A stretch of 64,000 bases of DNA. It comes from a bacterium (GTDB lineage Bacteria; CLD3; SB21). The first letter of the stretch is position 1; each line of letters begins with the position of its first letter. A program made the position numbers and the translations under genes. Shown here one piece after another: positions 45,318 to 51,906 of this stretch. The DNA lies in contig JABWCP010000008.1 in the NCBI GenBank assembly GCA_013360215.1, positions 110,889 through 174,888 of the forward strand. Direction: 5' to 3'. The notes beneath the pieces were generated by a model. That model did no database searches. It saw only the letters and a list, made by a program, of their open reading frames with translations, and was not told the DNA's origin.

Positions 45318-48300
45318 ATGCCGGAACAGCCTTCAACACAGCGCCGATTCGAAGAACTTTGGGCAGGCCGCGGTTACTCTACGCGCATCCAAAATTTTCA
45401 GGAACTCATGCGCTTTAAAGTGCGTGATATTCTGTTGATTTCCAGCTTGTACGATTCCTACATACTCGAAGAAGATGGTCGTTTATTTGAACTCATCCAG
45501 GAGGAATACCGCGGGCTCGATATGAATCAAGCGCCGGATATTATTCACGTATCCAATGGTACGGAGGCGATACGCATACTGGATCGCCAACACCGTTTTG
45601 ACCTCATCTTGATGACTTTGCATATCGAAGATATCCACGCTATCGCCCTTGCCAAAAAAATTCGTTCGCTTGGCCATGAAATGCCGATCATCGTTTTGGC
45701 TTACGATAATATCGAAACGCAGGAAGTAATGACCCATCGGGATGCCGATATTTTTGAAAATATTTTTATTTGGCAGGGCGACTACCGTCTTCTCATCGGC
45801 ATTATCAAATACATCGAAGATAAAATGAATTTTGCGCACGATTCGCGTGCGATCGGCGTTCAAGGCATCATTTTGGTCGAGGATAATGTGAAGTTTTATT
45901 CCTCGTATCTGCCGATCATTTATACCGAAATCCATCGTCAGTCGCAGCGATTGATCTCCGAAGGCATCAATCTCACGCATAAATTTTTGCGTATGCGCGC
46001 ACGTCCGAAAATTTTGTTATGCCATACCTACGAAGAAGCGTGGAAATATTACGAAGAGTATAATGAATATATACTCGGAATGATCTCCGACGTGGACTTT
46101 CCGCGTAATGGCACCGTCGAATCCAAAGTCGGATTACTGCTCGCACGGACGATACGCGAAAAACAGTCGGATATCCCCATACTTTTGCAATCCAACGAAT
46201 CTTCGTATAGCGAAGAAGCCCGTGAGATCGGCGCCGCTTTTGTTCTCAAAGATTCTCCCGTTTTGCTTCAGGAACTCAGCGATTTCATGAAACAAAATTT
46301 CAGCTTCGGCGATTTTGTGTTTCGCTTGGAAGACGGTTCCGAAGCCGGCCGCGCATCGGATCTGAGTTCGCTCGAAGAAACACTGCATAGCGTGCCCGCT
46401 GAAAGCGTTCAATATCACGGCGAACGCAATCACTTTTCCAACTGGCTCAAAGCCCGCACTGAATTTTGGCTCGCCCATAAGTTAAAACCGAAAAAAGTTA
46501 CGGACTATGCTACCGTCGAAGATATTCGCCAGCATGTCATCAAAGTACTCAAAGATTACCGCGAAATTCGTCAACGCGCCAACATTACCGATTTCAGCAA
46601 AGACACTTTCGATCCGGAAAGCAGTTTTGCCCGCATCGGCGGCGGTTCGCTCGGCGGTAAAGCGCGCGGTCTCGGTTTCGTCAAAACATTGCTCAATAAT
46701 TACAACATGCGTTATGCTTTTGAAGGCGCTAAAATATTTGTCCCGGCCGCCGTGGCGATCGGTACCAGTGTCTTCGATCAGTTTTTGGAGCAAAATAATT
46801 TGCGTGAGTTGGCGTTAAATTCGACCGATGATCGTGAAATTGCCGATTCCTTTCATTCGGCTTCTTATTTTCCGCCCGAAGTGATAACGCAATTACGCGA
46901 ATTTTTGGAAATGGTGAGCGTTCCGCTCGCCGTGCGCTCTTCCAGTTTGCTCGAGGATTCGCAATATCATCCTTTTGCGGGCGTGTACGAAACCTACATG
47001 ATCCCCAACAATCACGCCGATACTGAGACGCGACTCCAGGAGCTGCTCACGACGATCAAAAAAGTGTATGCTTCGACTTTTTACAAAGCGACTAAAGATT
47101 ATATCAAACAAACCGCCTACCGCCTTGAAGAAGAAAAAATGGCGGTGATTATTATGCGAACTGTCGGTGCTGCACACGATAATCGGTTTTATCCGGATTT
47201 CTCCGGCGTGGCGAAGTCTTATAATTTTTACCCGATGCCGCCACAGACCGCTAAAGATGGAATTGCATCCATAGCACTGGGACTCGGTAAAACTATCGTG
47301 GACGGAGGCAACACCGTTCGTTTTTGCCCCAAATATCCAAAACATTTGATCCAACAATTTTCCACCAAAGAAGCGCTTAAAACCAGCCAGACCGAATTTT
47401 ACGCTATGAAGCTCGGCGCTACGGAAGTGGACTTGTATCGTGACACCAAAGATCGCTTGATTGAGAAGTTTACGTTGGATACGGCTGAAAAAGACGGGTC
47501 ATTACGTTTTTCAGGTTCGACCTATTCTATTGAAAATGACGCGGTGTACGACGGCATTTCCCGCGCCGGTATGCGTATTGTTACGTTCGCGCCGATTTTA
47601 AAAAATAAAATGTTTCCACTGCCTGAAATCCTGGACTTGCTTTTGGAGCTTGGAAAGTGGGGTATGGGTTCGGAAATCGAAATGGAGTTTGCCGTAAATA
47701 TGTCCACTCCGCCCGGTAAGCCGCGCGAATTTGGCGTGCTGCAAATGCGTCCGTTGGTTTTGCGTTTGGAAAATGACGCCCTGGATGTGACACCGTACCG
47801 GCGGGAAGAAATGATTTGTGAAAGTACGCAAGTGCTGGGTAACGGCGTTATTGATTCGATCCGCGATATTTTGGTCGTGGATTATGATCGTTTTGATCGC
47901 GCCCGCAGCAAAGAGGTCGCGTTGGAAATCGCTCAGCTCAATGAAAAATTAGTTCGCGAAGGCAAGCCTTATGCATTGATCGGCGTGGGGCGCTGGGGCA
48001 GTTTGGATCACTGGCTGGGCATACCCGTACGATGGGATCAGATCAATGGCGCCCGAGCGATCGTCGAATCCAGTTTTCGCGATTTTGATGTGGATCCGTC
48101 GCAAGGTTCGCATTTTTTTCAAAACATCACCAGCTTTCAAGTCGGCTACTTCACTGTCCCTCATCATGCGGCCTCCAGCTTTGTAGATTGGGCTTGGCTA
48201 TCCGCGCAAAAAGCAGAAGAAGAACTAAATTTTACACGGCATTTGTCGTTTGAAAATCCTATCGTAGCGGTGATCAACGGACATGATGGAAAAGGGGTTT

Positions 48301-48347
48301 TACTGAAACCGAAACCTCCATCGAAAGAAAGTGCGGTGTCTTTATGA
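45318..48347 (+). CDS. Double-receiver protein with PEP-synthase-type ATP-binding domain
   Basis: 1009 residues from ATG 45318. Residues about 35-170 look like a receiver domain without the phospho-acceptor: T100 stands where Asp is expected in FDLILMTLHIED. Residues 182-328 form a second receiver that keeps its acidic pair (ILVEDN), acceptor D258 (GMISDVDFP) and K311 (FVLKDSP). From about 435 a PPDK/PEP-synthase N-terminal domain follows: RIGGGSLGGKARGLGF, PLAVRSSSLLEDSQYHPFAG, IALGLGKTIVDGG and FGVLQMRPL. The phosphohistidine and PEP/pyruvate domains of real PEP synthases are absent; an unassigned C-terminus replaces them. Its TGA overlaps the kinase ATG by 4 bases, so the pair forms one signalling unit. 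Confidence 0.82.
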   Translation: MPEQPSTQRRFEELWAGRGYSTRIQNFQELMRFKVRDILLISSLYDSYILEEDGRLFELIQEEYRGLDMNQAPDIIHVSNGTEAIRILDRQHRFDLILMTLHIEDIHAIALAKKIRSLGHEMPIIVLAYDNIETQEVMTHRDADIFENIFIWQGDYRLLIGIIKYIEDKMNFAHDSRAIGVQGIILVEDNVKFYSSYLPIIYTEIHRQSQRLISEGINLTHKFLRMRARPKILLCHTYEEAWKYYEEYNEYILGMISDVDFPRNGTVESKVGLLLARTIREKQSDIPILLQSNESSYSEEAREIGAAFVLKDSPVLLQELSDFMKQNFSFGDFVFRLEDGSEAGRASDLSSLEETLHSVPAESVQYHGERNHFSNWLKARTEFWLAHKLKPKKVTDYATVEDIRQHVIKVLKDYREIRQRANITDFSKDTFDPESSFARIGGGSLGGKARGLGFVKTLLNNYNMRYAFEGAKIFVPAAVAIGTSVFDQFLEQNNLRELALNSTDDREIADSFHSASYFPPEVITQLREFLEMVSVPLAVRSSSLLEDSQYHPFAGVYETYMIPNNHADTETRLQELLTTIKKVYASTFYKATKDYIKQTAYRLEEEKMAVIIMRTVGAAHDNRFYPDFSGVAKSYNFYPMPPQTAKDGIASIALGLGKTIVDGGNTVRFCPKYPKHLIQQFSTKEALKTSQTEFYAMKLGATEVDLYRDTKDRLIEKFTLDTAEKDGSLRFSGSTYSIENDAVYDGISRAGMRIVTFAPILKNKMFPLPEILDLLLELGKWGMGSEIEMEFAVNMSTPPGKPREFGVLQMRPLVLRLENDALDVTPYRREEMICESTQVLGNGVIDSIRDILVVDYDRFDRARSKEVALEIAQLNEKLVREGKPYALIGVGRWGSLDHWLGIPVRWDQINGARAIVESSFRDFDVDPSQGSHFFQNITSFQVGYFTVPHHAASSFVDWAWLSAQKAEEELNFTRHLSFENPIVAVINGHDGKGVLLKPKPPSKESAVSL

Positions 48348-50611
48348 ACACGCAATCGCTTGAGTTTGTTCAAAAAACAAAGCAGGAATTGAACTGCAAA
48401 ATCATTCGCACGATGTTGAATTATGCGCTCGAAAAAGCAGGGCCTGATGCCGAACGCAAGCTGATCGAACGCATGGGGCTGACACGCGAGTATTTGCAAA
48501 ATGAAAATAATTGGGTTTCGTTTGACGTTTATACGCATGCCTGCGAGGCTATGAAAACGATTTTCAACGATGACCGCATTATGTACCGCGTCGGGATTTA
48601 TTCATTTTCCAATCTTGAAAACTTCGGCGCTATCGCCAAAATGGCTGTCTATCTTCTCAAACCGGAAAGCATATACCGGCGAACGGCCGAAGTCGCTAAC
48701 CAGGCTGTCAAATTCGGCACATACCGAGTGGTCGAAATTGAAAGCAATCGCCTTCTGTTAGAATTCAAAAATCGCGAGGGTTATAAATTTCATCAACATA
48801 ATTGCGATTATCGCCTGGGTGTTTTTGCAGGGATACCACAACTTTTCGGATTGCCTATCGCACGTCATCGTAGCATTCAATGTGTTTCCGATGGTGCGGA
48901 TCGGTGTTTATACGAGTTCCGCTGGTTATCGCGTACATGGGAAATATTCGGTCGGCATGCACGAATCGGCCTTGTTATGGGTATTTTATTTGCCCTCGTT
49001 TTGACGGTTCTTAACCGATTTACTTTTTCGCATTTTAGCCAACCGGCTTTATTGATCAGCGGTGCGGCCGTTCTGTATCTGATCGGTATCATACTCGATA
49101 TGAAACATACGGCACAGTACAGTGCGTTTATTAATTCAGGCAAATCCGATGAGATCGAAGAAGCGATGGCGTTTGCTAATCAAAAATACCAGGAAGCGGC
49201 CGACAACATAACCAAGCTTCAAGCGATCATCGAAGGCAATGCCGTACTTCAATCGAAGCTGATTAAATCCGAGTTGGTCGAAATCGTTCTTGAGATCATA
49301 AAACACAATCTCGGTTATGATCGCGCCATGATTCTCTTTAAAAATAATACGCAGCCTTTGTTGGATTCGCCTAAACTCATCGGCAACCTCAGTCCGGAGA
49401 TGGAGCAAGCACTGCTTAATTATAAAATCAACCTTACGGACGAAACCGCCATCAATACCCGAGTTTTTTATAGCGGCGAATCTGCACTAATCACGGATAT
49501 GTCCGATGTGAAAAACAATACCGAAATGAAAGCGGTCCAATTGTCCGGTACAAAATCATTTGTCATTTTACCATTTAAAATCGGTTCGCGTGTGGTCGGA
49601 ACATTGACGGTTGATAAAATCAGTTCACCGAAAATCATGACACGCGAAGATGTGCGTATTCTCAATACACTCCTCAATATGTTATCCGTCGCTTTGGAAA
49701 ACGCCGAACTGTATCAGGATTTGGAAGCCCGCGTTCGTGAACGTACAGCCCAACTCAACGAAACCAACAAAAAATTGGAATCGGCTTACGATGAACTCAA
49801 ACAAGCTCAGGCGCAATTATTACACAATGAAAAAATGGCGAGCCTTGGTAAATTGGTAGCCGGTATCGCGCACGAAATGAATAACCCTGCCGGCATACTT
49901 TCCGGATATATCGAACTCATGGAACTGCATGCCAATCGCCTACGCAAAGATCTGGAAATTTTGGACCAATTCAGTGCGGCGCATGAAGATATTGCCGGTA
50001 CCATACAACATATTGAGAAGAACATTCTTGAAATTACCGATTCGATCGAGCCGTGCAAACGCTCTGTCTGGCGTATCAAGAGCATCATTCAGGATTTACG
50101 CAATTTTTCCCGTTTGGACGAAAACGAACTTATGCCTGCCAACATCAACGAAGGCCTTGAGAATACGCTTAAGTTTTTTAAAAGCCAGGCCGAAGGACGC
50201 ATTCGCATCATTACGCATTTCAATCCCATCCCTCAGGTCACTTGTTTCCCCGGTCATCTCAATCAAGTGTTCAGCAATGTTATTTCAAACGCTATCGAAG
50301 CAATAGATGGAGCCGGCACGATCGAAGTACACACTTCTAAAAGCGAACCGACATCGGATGTGCCGACAGATCATATCGTCGTCAAAATCAAAGATTCGGG
50401 ACACGGCATTCCGGCGGAAATTCAGGGTAAAATCTTTGATCCATTTTTTACCACCAAAGATATCGGCGCAGGCAAAGGATTAGGTTTATCGATTGCTTAT
50501 GGTATCATCAAACAACACAGCGGAAGCATCTCCGCCGAAAGTGAACAAGATCAAGGTGCGTGTATTACAATTCGCATTCCGATAGAATATGGCTATGAAA
50601 GAAAAGGGTAA
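48344..50611 (+). CDS. Hybrid-input sensor histidine kinase (V4R/HNOB-like, two TM, GAF, HisKA, HATPase)
   Basis: 755 residues. Residues 1-195 form a soluble sensor like V4R or heme-NO-binding-related domains (DYRLGVFAGIPQLFGLPIARH and DGADRCLYEFRW). Two membrane helices follow (about 208-228 and 234-252), then a GAF domain (about 300-455), a coiled coil (LNETNKKLESAYDELKQAQA), and the kinase: H510 in GIAHEMNNPAG, N box QVFSNVISNAIEA, G boxes DSGHGIP and GKGLGLSIAYG. Both sensor and kinase face the cytoplasm, as only a very short loop separates the helices. It probably phosphorylates D258 of the partner encoded just upstream. Confidence 0.88.
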   Translation: MNTQSLEFVQKTKQELNCKIIRTMLNYALEKAGPDAERKLIERMGLTREYLQNENNWVSFDVYTHACEAMKTIFNDDRIMYRVGIYSFSNLENFGAIAKMAVYLLKPESIYRRTAEVANQAVKFGTYRVVEIESNRLLLEFKNREGYKFHQHNCDYRLGVFAGIPQLFGLPIARHRSIQCVSDGADRCLYEFRWLSRTWEIFGRHARIGLVMGILFALVLTVLNRFTFSHFSQPALLISGAAVLYLIGIILDMKHTAQYSAFINSGKSDEIEEAMAFANQKYQEAADNITKLQAIIEGNAVLQSKLIKSELVEIVLEIIKHNLGYDRAMILFKNNTQPLLDSPKLIGNLSPEMEQALLNYKINLTDETAINTRVFYSGESALITDMSDVKNNTEMKAVQLSGTKSFVILPFKIGSRVVGTLTVDKISSPKIMTREDVRILNTLLNMLSVALENAELYQDLEARVRERTAQLNETNKKLESAYDELKQAQAQLLHNEKMASLGKLVAGIAHEMNNPAGILSGYIELMELHANRLRKDLEILDQFSAAHEDIAGTIQHIEKNILEITDSIEPCKRSVWRIKSIIQDLRNFSRLDENELMPANINEGLENTLKFFKSQAEGRIRIITHFNPIPQVTCFPGHLNQVFSNVISNAIEAIDGAGTIEVHTSKSEPTSDVPTDHIVVKIKDSGHGIPAEIQGKIFDPFFTTKDIGAGKGLGLSIAYGIIKQHSGSISAESEQDQGACITIRIPIEYGYERKG

Positions 50612-50616
50612 ACCGT

Positions 50617-50952
50617 ATGAGCAGTGATCGCGTGATCGAAATAAATACTGATAGCGTGGCATGGGAATCATCCGACAGCAAAGGCGTTTTTTATAAATCT
50701 CTACGCTATGATAAGGAAACCAAAGCCGGGGCGGTTTTGATTCGTATGGAACCGGGATCCGATTATCCTGAGCATGAGCATACACGCGGTGAAGACTTTA
50801 TCGTATTAGATGGCGAATTGATCATCGGGAATAAAACATTCCCCGCACAGAGTTACGTATACAGTCCGCCGCAATCCGTGCACCACCCGCGCACCGAAAA
50901 AGGATGTACTCTTTTTGCCGTATTTCACGGTAAAATCATCAACCTCAAATAA
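50617..50952 (+). CDS. Small cupin protein (ChrR-like cupin domain)
   Basis: 111 residues, one cupin barrel. The metal-binding motifs are visible as PEHEHTRGEDFIVLDGELII (H-x-H-x(5)-E) and later VHHPRTEKGCTLFAVFHGKI (H). It resembles the anti-sigma-factor ChrR cupin domain and other small dioxygenase-like cupins without the HTH or zinc part. Ribosome binding site aaaggg before ATG; only 5 bases separate it from the kinase stop and 6 from the transporter start, so it is part of the same operon. Ligand unknown. Confidence 0.8.
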   Translation: MSSDRVIEINTDSVAWESSDSKGVFYKSLRYDKETKAGAVLIRMEPGSDYPEHEHTRGEDFIVLDGELIIGNKTFPAQSYVYSPPQSVHHPRTEKGCTLFAVFHGKIINLK

Positions 50953-50958
50953 CCTCCC

Positions 50959-51906
50959 ATGATCGCTGTACATCTGGCTTTGTTTTTTGTGTCGCTTGTT
51001 TTCGGCGTCAATGCGGTGACTTCCAAATACGCTATGCGCGAAATTCACCCGATGGCTTTGGTGTTTATTCGCATCATAAGCGCCGCCGCGATTCTCTACA
51101 TCATACAACGGCTTTGGATCAAAGAGAAAATTCAAACGCGCAGGGATTATTTTTTACTGGCGGGATACAGTACCGTCGGTATCGTGATCAATCAGGTACT
51201 TTTTCTTAAAGGGCTTGCCTTAACAACAGCCATCAATGCGACCGTACTGATCACGACCATGCCCGCCGCAACGATCGGTATCGCCATACTTCTGCGCAAA
51301 GAACCTCCGAGCTTCCGAAAAATTATCGGCTCGATGATTTCCTTTAGCGGCGTTATCCTGTTACTCGGCAGCGAACGTATAGACTTCAGCAACGATTATT
51401 TTGTCGGTAATCTGCTCGTTTTCCTCAACGGCATCTCGTACAGTTTTTATTTGGTTATTTCACGGGATCTTTTGAAGCGTTATCACCCGTCGACCGTAAC
51501 AACGTGGATATTTGTTTTTGGTGCTGTCGGTGTTTTCCCGTTTGGCATCGGCGAAATATCGCGCCTTGATTGGGCGTCCGTCAGCTTCACGGCATGGGCG
51601 TGCGTGGCGTTTTTGATTATTTTTTCTTCCGTGATCGTGTACTTTATCAACAATTGGGCACTGCGCAAAACATCGTCATCGGTTGTCGCTGTATATATTT
51701 ATGTCCAACCGATTGTTGCGACGTTGATTTCAACCCAAATGATGGGTGAAATCCTACGCATGGAAACAGTAATCGCTGCGTTGTTGATTTTTAGCGGCGT
51801 ATTTATTGTCACGCTTAAAATGCGAGAAGAAATGAAAAAAGAAAAAAGTAACGACAACAAAGAAATAGATCTCGTCAAAGAATCCATGATCATGAAAGAA
51901 GATTGA
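50959..51906 (+). CDS. EamA-family drug/metabolite transporter
   Basis: 315 residues with ten membrane helices in two EamA repeats (the repeats begin with FVSLVFGVNAVTSKYAMREI and NLLVFLNGISYSFYLVISRD). The second half-repeat ends YVQPIVATLISTQMMGE, a well-conserved DMT motif. The cytoplasmic tail is charged (EEMKKEKSNDNKEIDLVKES). Substrates of this family include amino acids, nucleotides and drugs; none can be named here. Encoded 6 bases after the cupin gene. Confidence 0.9.
   Translation: MIAVHLALFFVSLVFGVNAVTSKYAMREIHPMALVFIRIISAAAILYIIQRLWIKEKIQTRRDYFLLAGYSTVGIVINQVLFLKGLALTTAINATVLITTMPAATIGIAILLRKEPPSFRKIIGSMISFSGVILLLGSERIDFSNDYFVGNLLVFLNGISYSFYLVISRDLLKRYHPSTVTTWIFVFGAVGVFPFGIGEISRLDWASVSFTAWACVAFLIIFSSVIVYFINNWALRKTSSSVVAVYIYVQPIVATLISTQMMGEILRMETVIAALLIFSGVFIVTLKMREEMKKEKSNDNKEIDLVKESMIMKED

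Follow-up and report, generated by a model that had tools for sequence, protein, structure and literature searches.

What does a two-component receiver control when its output is the ATP-binding part of a phosphoenolpyruvate (PEP) synthase, and which partner does such a protein serve? This question is raised by P0001, encoded on the forward strand of a 64,000-nucleotide stretch of bacterial DNA (the window; assembly GCA_013360215.1, contig JABWCP010000008.1), whose gene is overlapped by that of a histidine kinase (HK). The original prediction, drawn from the sequence alone, took the two for a possible signalling relay with no known acceptor. We found that the widely conserved neighbour of P0001 homologues is glutamate dehydrogenase (GDH), not HK, and we tentatively propose, at slightly under even probability, that P0001 is a receiver-gated ATP/phosphohistidine dikinase with GDH or glutamate metabolism as its target.

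The P0001 core is linked to glutamate dehydrogenase

Copies were searched in GTDB contigs and whole genomes, with the neighbouring GDH recognised by Pfam ELFV_dehydrog and lineages counted by genome family only. GDH was the nearest recurrent neighbour family of P0001 homologues, and in a first set of 102 copies, 63 had it as the immediate upstream gene in the same orientation. When at least 2.5 kb of flank was required to either side, 109 copies qualified; GDH lay no more than 3.5 kb away in 81 of these, which come from many families, and shared the strand in 75. A simple estimate, based on assumed values for genome size and the number of GDH copies, puts such proximity by chance below 1 % per copy. 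Furthermore, among genomes that have the core 78 of 79 showed a GDH-family match (E <= 1e-20), as did about 217 of the 307 that lack it; these counts were tallied from lists, and related genomes are not independent in them.

The core in question, an ATP-grasp domain followed by a characteristic C-terminal domain, also exists in a receiver-less form (~585 aa), with other N-termini (~780-880 aa) and, at ~1060 aa, with a nucleotidyltransferase domain added at the C-terminus. GDH linkage was seen in copies with receiver (REC) domains (66/88) as well as in REC-less ones (15/21), and several of the variant forms adjoin GDH. Because receiver-less and other architectures share this neighbour, it is the core rather than the receiver that is tied to GDH. 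P0001 itself carries the signature of the GDH-linked family, namely the ATP-grasp domain together with a GRWGS...[ST]HFF C-terminal domain. For the acceptor that the original prediction had left blank, GDH or a GDH-linked metabolite would now be the leading candidate. NuoE/NuoF-GltD-like and iron-sulfur NADH-linked genes lie downstream of several GDH-linked copies (loci L027, L028 and L091).

Domain content of P0001

The features of P0001, all on the forward strand, are as follows, with the basis of each assignment in brackets.

45318..48347, +, P0001, a 1009-aa protein of predicted order REC-REC-DUF5752-like-ATP-grasp-swivel (translation, Pfam, AlphaFold2 (AF2) model with pLDDT 82.8)
45417..45830, +, receiver domain 1 (REC1), Asp-less, with T100 where the Asp is expected (Pfam, alignment, structural match)
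45858..46307, +, receiver domain 2 (REC2), with the complete active site E188, D189, D258, S292 and K311 (alignment)
46089..46091, +, codon of D258, the predicted phosphoacceptor Asp (invariance in alignments)
46353..46577, +, DUF5752-like segment, residues 346-420 (Pfam, 24.4 bits; alignment)
46647..47762, +, PPDK_N ATP-grasp domain, residues 444-815 (Pfam, E 1.7e-35; structural match)
47781..48317, +, C-terminal domain, residues 822-1000, a predicted cryptic phosphohistidine swivel (AF2 pLDDT 90.4; structural matches, without sequence-profile support)
48111..48113, +, codon of H932, in SQGSHFFQN, the candidate phosphohistidine (invariance; helix position in the model)

Two stretches of Response_reg and one of PPDK_N were recognised by Pfam, bearing out the predicted joining of two receiver-like domains to the ATP-binding part of a PEP-synthase-type enzyme. 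REC2 has the acid pair, phosphoacceptor Asp, Ser/Thr and Lys of a response regulator: across 18 diverse REC-type homologues E188, D189, D258 and K311 are invariant and position 292 is Ser or Thr, whereas none of the 18 has an Asp at the equivalent position of REC1. In the full-length AF2 model, REC1 matched the PorX receiver and REC2 a Spo0F-like receiver, each with Z 14. The DUF5752-like segment has five invariant residues (H367, N371, W376, R380 and E382) in an alignment of 64 homologues.

Like response regulators whose output is an enzyme (PorX, CheB and GGDEF types), P0001 has an enzyme under a receiver, but its output differs, being an ATP-grasp and predicted phosphohistidine core. The original prediction regarded this output as unusual; the fusion is real, but REC-PPDK proteins were already in print, as 'Bacteroides-like' fusions (PMC5847659) and as Asp-less receivers with PPDK output (Maule 2015, PMC4395418). 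The reported architecture is the same as that of P0001, with its Asp-less REC1. The passages that mention these fusions give no function, partner gene or phosphohistidine domain, and the GDH linkage is added here. Within the open-licence literature, we likewise found no report of a function, a GDH link (for REC-PPDK or PEP-synthase-like proteins) or a hidden domain.

An ATP-grasp domain without the PEP-binding barrel

The ATP-grasp domain has the conserved Lys, Arg, Glu and Gln of PEP synthase (PEPS) and pyruvate phosphate dikinase (PPDK), since K448, R540, E546, E790 and Q809 are invariant both in the 64 homologues and in 38 diverse members covering all architectures. In the full-length model it matched PEPS and rifampin phosphotransferase (RPH) with Z 22-26, and the alignments ran on through the C-terminal domain, spanning model residues 425-999 with PEPS 2ols (Z 26.4), 436-999 with PPDK 1dik (Z 18.6) and 426-999 with 1kbl; RPH 5hv3 gave Z 26.1. 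With PEPS and PPDK (PpsA, PpdK; PF01326, PF00391 and PF02896), P0001 shares the PPDK_N ATP-grasp with its nucleotide residues; next in its chain comes a domain that is modelled as similar in fold to the phosphohistidine carrier and in which an invariant His opens a helix. It differs in its two N-terminal receivers, in a putative carrier domain that is not recognisable by sequence and holds large insertions (the GRWGS...LGIPV segment), and in lacking the PEP/pyruvate barrel: the chain stops after the C-terminal domain, and no Pfam match to PF02896 was obtained in P0001, as the original prediction had stated. Without a PEP domain, P0001 is ruled out as the PEP synthase of its genome.

Whole-genome profile matches (PPDK_N, PF00391) in the window genome (G000) revealed no PEP synthase or PPDK; the only PPDK_N match was P0001 itself and the only PF00391 match a 592-aa, PtsI-sized frame. 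Unlike G000, genomes of the same family additionally hold a PPDK-sized PF00391 protein.

RPH, the best single structural match (Z 26.5 for the whole, 7.5 for the carrier), has in common with P0001 the ATP-grasp and, as predicted here, a phosphohistidine swivel. P0001 scored 23.2 bits against a cut-off of 999 for the RPH equivalog NF041857, and by Pfam and model no rifampin-binding domain lies between the two parts, the C-terminal domain following directly behind the ATP-grasp. The GDH neighbourhood suggests a metabolic rather than a resistance role.

Since the homologous PEPS, PPDK and RPH all use small molecules, the core might instead phosphorylate 2-oxoglutarate, glutamate or a derived metabolite, with GDH merely belonging to the same pathway, and aminotransferase genes do adjoin some copies (clusters 9 and L033). 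We consider this unlikely, as Pfam found no third substrate domain comparable to the PEP or rifampin domains and the core is found behind N-termini of very different kinds.

The C-terminal domain as a probable cryptic phosphohistidine swivel

The original prediction held that P0001 lacks a phosphohistidine domain, and indeed no Pfam family matched residues 822-1009. Modelled alone with AF2 (mean pLDDT 90.4), the C-terminal domain was compared by VIA realignment against the Foldseek top 1000 PDB chains. The 12 top rows were all of swivel type (Z 6.2-7.5; root-mean-square deviation 2.8-4.6 Å over 104-121 residues) and comprised the RPH swivel domain, the PPDK central domain, among whose rows is 2fm4, the phosphoryl carrier domain by itself, and an additional domain at the C-terminus of two bacterial pyruvate kinases; the first rows outside this group had Z 6.0 and lower. 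For 5fbu (112), 3t05, 2e28 and 5hv3 the number of aligned residues equals the whole chain range, and therefore the target is fully covered while the query holds ~65 inserted residues.

Within this domain, H932 is conserved without exception in the 38 diverse members, whatever their architecture, and in the C-terminal model it opens a helix lying between the strands ARAIVES and GYFTV. This would be the position at which PEP synthase and PPDK carry their catalytic His. Judging by the modelled fold and the invariant His, we consider it quite likely that the C-terminal ~180 residues form a cryptic phosphohistidine swivel. The claimed lack of such a domain is thus probably wrong. The original prediction had named the finding of this domain as something that would refute it, and the comparison with structure databases that it had called for points to the domain by fold, though not by sequence.

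This conservation also bears on whether P0001 catalyses anything. The GDH linkage alone would suit an ATP-binding scaffold that regulates GDH allosterically, without catalysis; such a role appears very improbable in view of the strict conservation of all catalytic ATP-grasp residues and of H932.

The histidine kinase as an apparently local partner

At the window locus, the P0001 gene is followed on the same strand by these features.

48344..50611, +, HK, 755 aa, with a weak V4R-like N-terminus, a hydrophobic segment, GAF, HisKA (H510) and HATPase_c (Pfam, alignment)
48344..48347, +, ATGA start/stop overlap (sequence)
50617..50952, +, ChrR-type cupin, Cupin_7 (Pfam)
50959..51906, +, EamA transporter (Pfam)

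The local description given by the original prediction was confirmed, except for the phosphohistidine domain: both open reading frames are present, positions 48344-48347 hold the start of the full HK gene and the stop of P0001, and the ChrR-like cupin and the EamA gene follow closely, at gaps of 5 bases (HK to cupin) and 6 bases (cupin to EamA). The V4R-like stretch of HK is a very weak match. Because of the gene overlap and the short gaps, P0001, HK, cupin and EamA probably form a single transcript.

The pairing of P0001 with HK was not conserved in same-family relatives. GDH is directly upstream of the P0001 homologue in four genomes of the same family (G001, G002, G003 and G005) and 3.7 kb from it in G006, while the contig of G004 ends too early to judge; the window copy, with no GDH within 3.5 kb, belongs to the minority without this neighbour. 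The HK N-terminus was located in G001, G003 and G005, each time on a contig other than that of the P0001 homologue, and was not found in G002, G004 and G006, so that in none of the six same-family genomes does the same kinase adjoin as a conserved cognate pair would. As sister genomes keep HK apart from P0001, whose homologue stays with GDH, HK is ruled out as the ancestral partner. EamA lies directly behind the HK homologue in G003 and G005, and because these sister genomes have HK with EamA, apart from P0001, the HK-EamA pair predates the P0001-HK link. The ATGA overlap with P0001 probably arose recently and locally.

In G003 the HK-EamA pair stands just behind a katG-like gene and near a LysR-type gene (L191:5045-10688), a neighbourhood hinting at oxidative stress as the context of the kinase. 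The other GDH homologue of the window genome (407 aa; contig C1, L190:7576-11409) is followed by three same-strand open reading frames with receiver-like N-termini.

These observations also bear on a direct version of the relay, in which the linked HK phosphorylates D258 and thereby switches on the ATP-grasp, which phosphorylates or ligates a partner without any phosphohistidine step. It would agree with the ATGA overlap, with a complete REC2 joined to a complete ATP-grasp, and with a C-terminus that has no sequence match to phosphohistidine families. With a swivel-like fold, an invariant His at the usual chain position and an HK that is unlinked or undetected in sister genomes, we regard it as quite improbable.

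Possible kinase input in other lineages

Nine Ignavibacteria-type loci have the protein, a kinase (HisKA_3) and a NarL-type regulator in tandem, usually with another GDH next and often with another copy of the protein. This kinase is of PAS-HisKA_3 type, other than the HisKA kinase of the window, and coupling to two-component signalling therefore seems to have arisen more than once. Phosphorylation of REC2 by a kinase is plausible, if unproven, being supported by the invariance of D258 and by the nine loci. Superclusters of the order GDH-protein-HK-NarL regulator-GDH occur in Ignavibacteria (L107, L095, L076, L067 and L058), several of them extended by a second protein copy and a further GDH.

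Many copies have no adjoining kinase, and a relay within the protein could do without one: the phosphoryl group would pass from ATP to H932 and on to D258, so that the self-phosphorylated receiver acts as a sensor of energy charge. Transfer from phosphohistidine to Asp is ordinary receiver chemistry, and both D258 and H932 are invariant in REC-type members. However, REC-less members retain H932 and the GDH linkage, which argues for another job of the core, and kinases are nearby in the nine loci; we hold this relay to be decidedly improbable.

A model for receiver-gated phosphoryl transfer

We return to the proposed receiver-gated dikinase. In this model, the ATP-grasp domain would use ATP to phosphorylate H932 on the putative swivel domain, in the manner of PEP synthase, PPDK and RPH; H932 would then hand the phosphoryl group on to GDH itself or to a metabolite that takes part in the reaction of GDH, whereby GDH or glutamate flux would be adjusted. 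REC1, without its Asp, may be a structural or dimerisation element, and REC2 would gate the core once a histidine kinase has phosphorylated D258, a role that the ATGA-coupled HK, apparently a local and recent partner, would take in the window genome. Of the relay as first interpreted, receiver input to a complete ATP-grasp remains plausible; HK as a conserved partner does not carry over, nor, probably, does the absence of a phosphohistidine domain.

Several observations weigh against our model. Gene proximity is no proof of a physical or enzymatic link to GDH, and the window genome encodes its closest GDH homologue, which shares 81% identity with the G003 GDH, on a different contig; REC-less relatives indicate that receiver control is optional. 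As to the swivel, comparing the C-terminal profile by hhalign with an alignment of PF00391-type swivels gave no support, either locally or in context, and hmmsearch of that profile against PDB sequences gave no matches up to E 10. Plain Foldseek with the C-terminal model returned nothing at E <= 0.001, its rows being at chance level and swivel domains unlisted, so that the swivel matches come top only after VIA realignment; their Z of 6-7.5 falls short of 8, the level at which such matches become safe.

GDH connects carbon and nitrogen metabolism, and to our knowledge little has been learned about how it is controlled in Bacteroidota, Ignavibacteria and Calditrichota. An ATP-grasp protein with an invariant histidine adjoins GDH in what may be hundreds of genomes. 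If P0001-type proteins modify GDH or its substrates, a general layer of control would have been hidden by annotation as 'PEP synthase-like' or 'PEP/pyruvate-binding domain', and a concrete, testable target would be in hand for a receiver whose PEP-synthase-type output is shared by few others. More speculatively, and in our estimate somewhat unlikely, the core would define a large, unstudied phosphohistidine family that phosphorylates or otherwise switches GDH, with interchangeable inputs (receivers, RecA/KaiC-like domains or none) and one branch carrying a nucleotidyltransferase. If true, this would be a new post-translational control of nitrogen metabolism, exerted by a PEP-synthase-like protein kinase under two-component gating.

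Variant forms of the core

The ~1060-aa paralogues were seen in GDH operons directly behind a 585-aa core gene (L174:3663-6872, L175:3760-6945, L179:8529-11711 and L180:3249-6431), and their NTP_transf_2 domain was over the Pfam cut-off in three of four. In the 860-aa forms (L182-L188, 780-880 aa), the N-terminal part had no Pfam match and resembles a degenerate RecA/KaiC-type ATPase (GLDxxIxxLRxGDNVVW).

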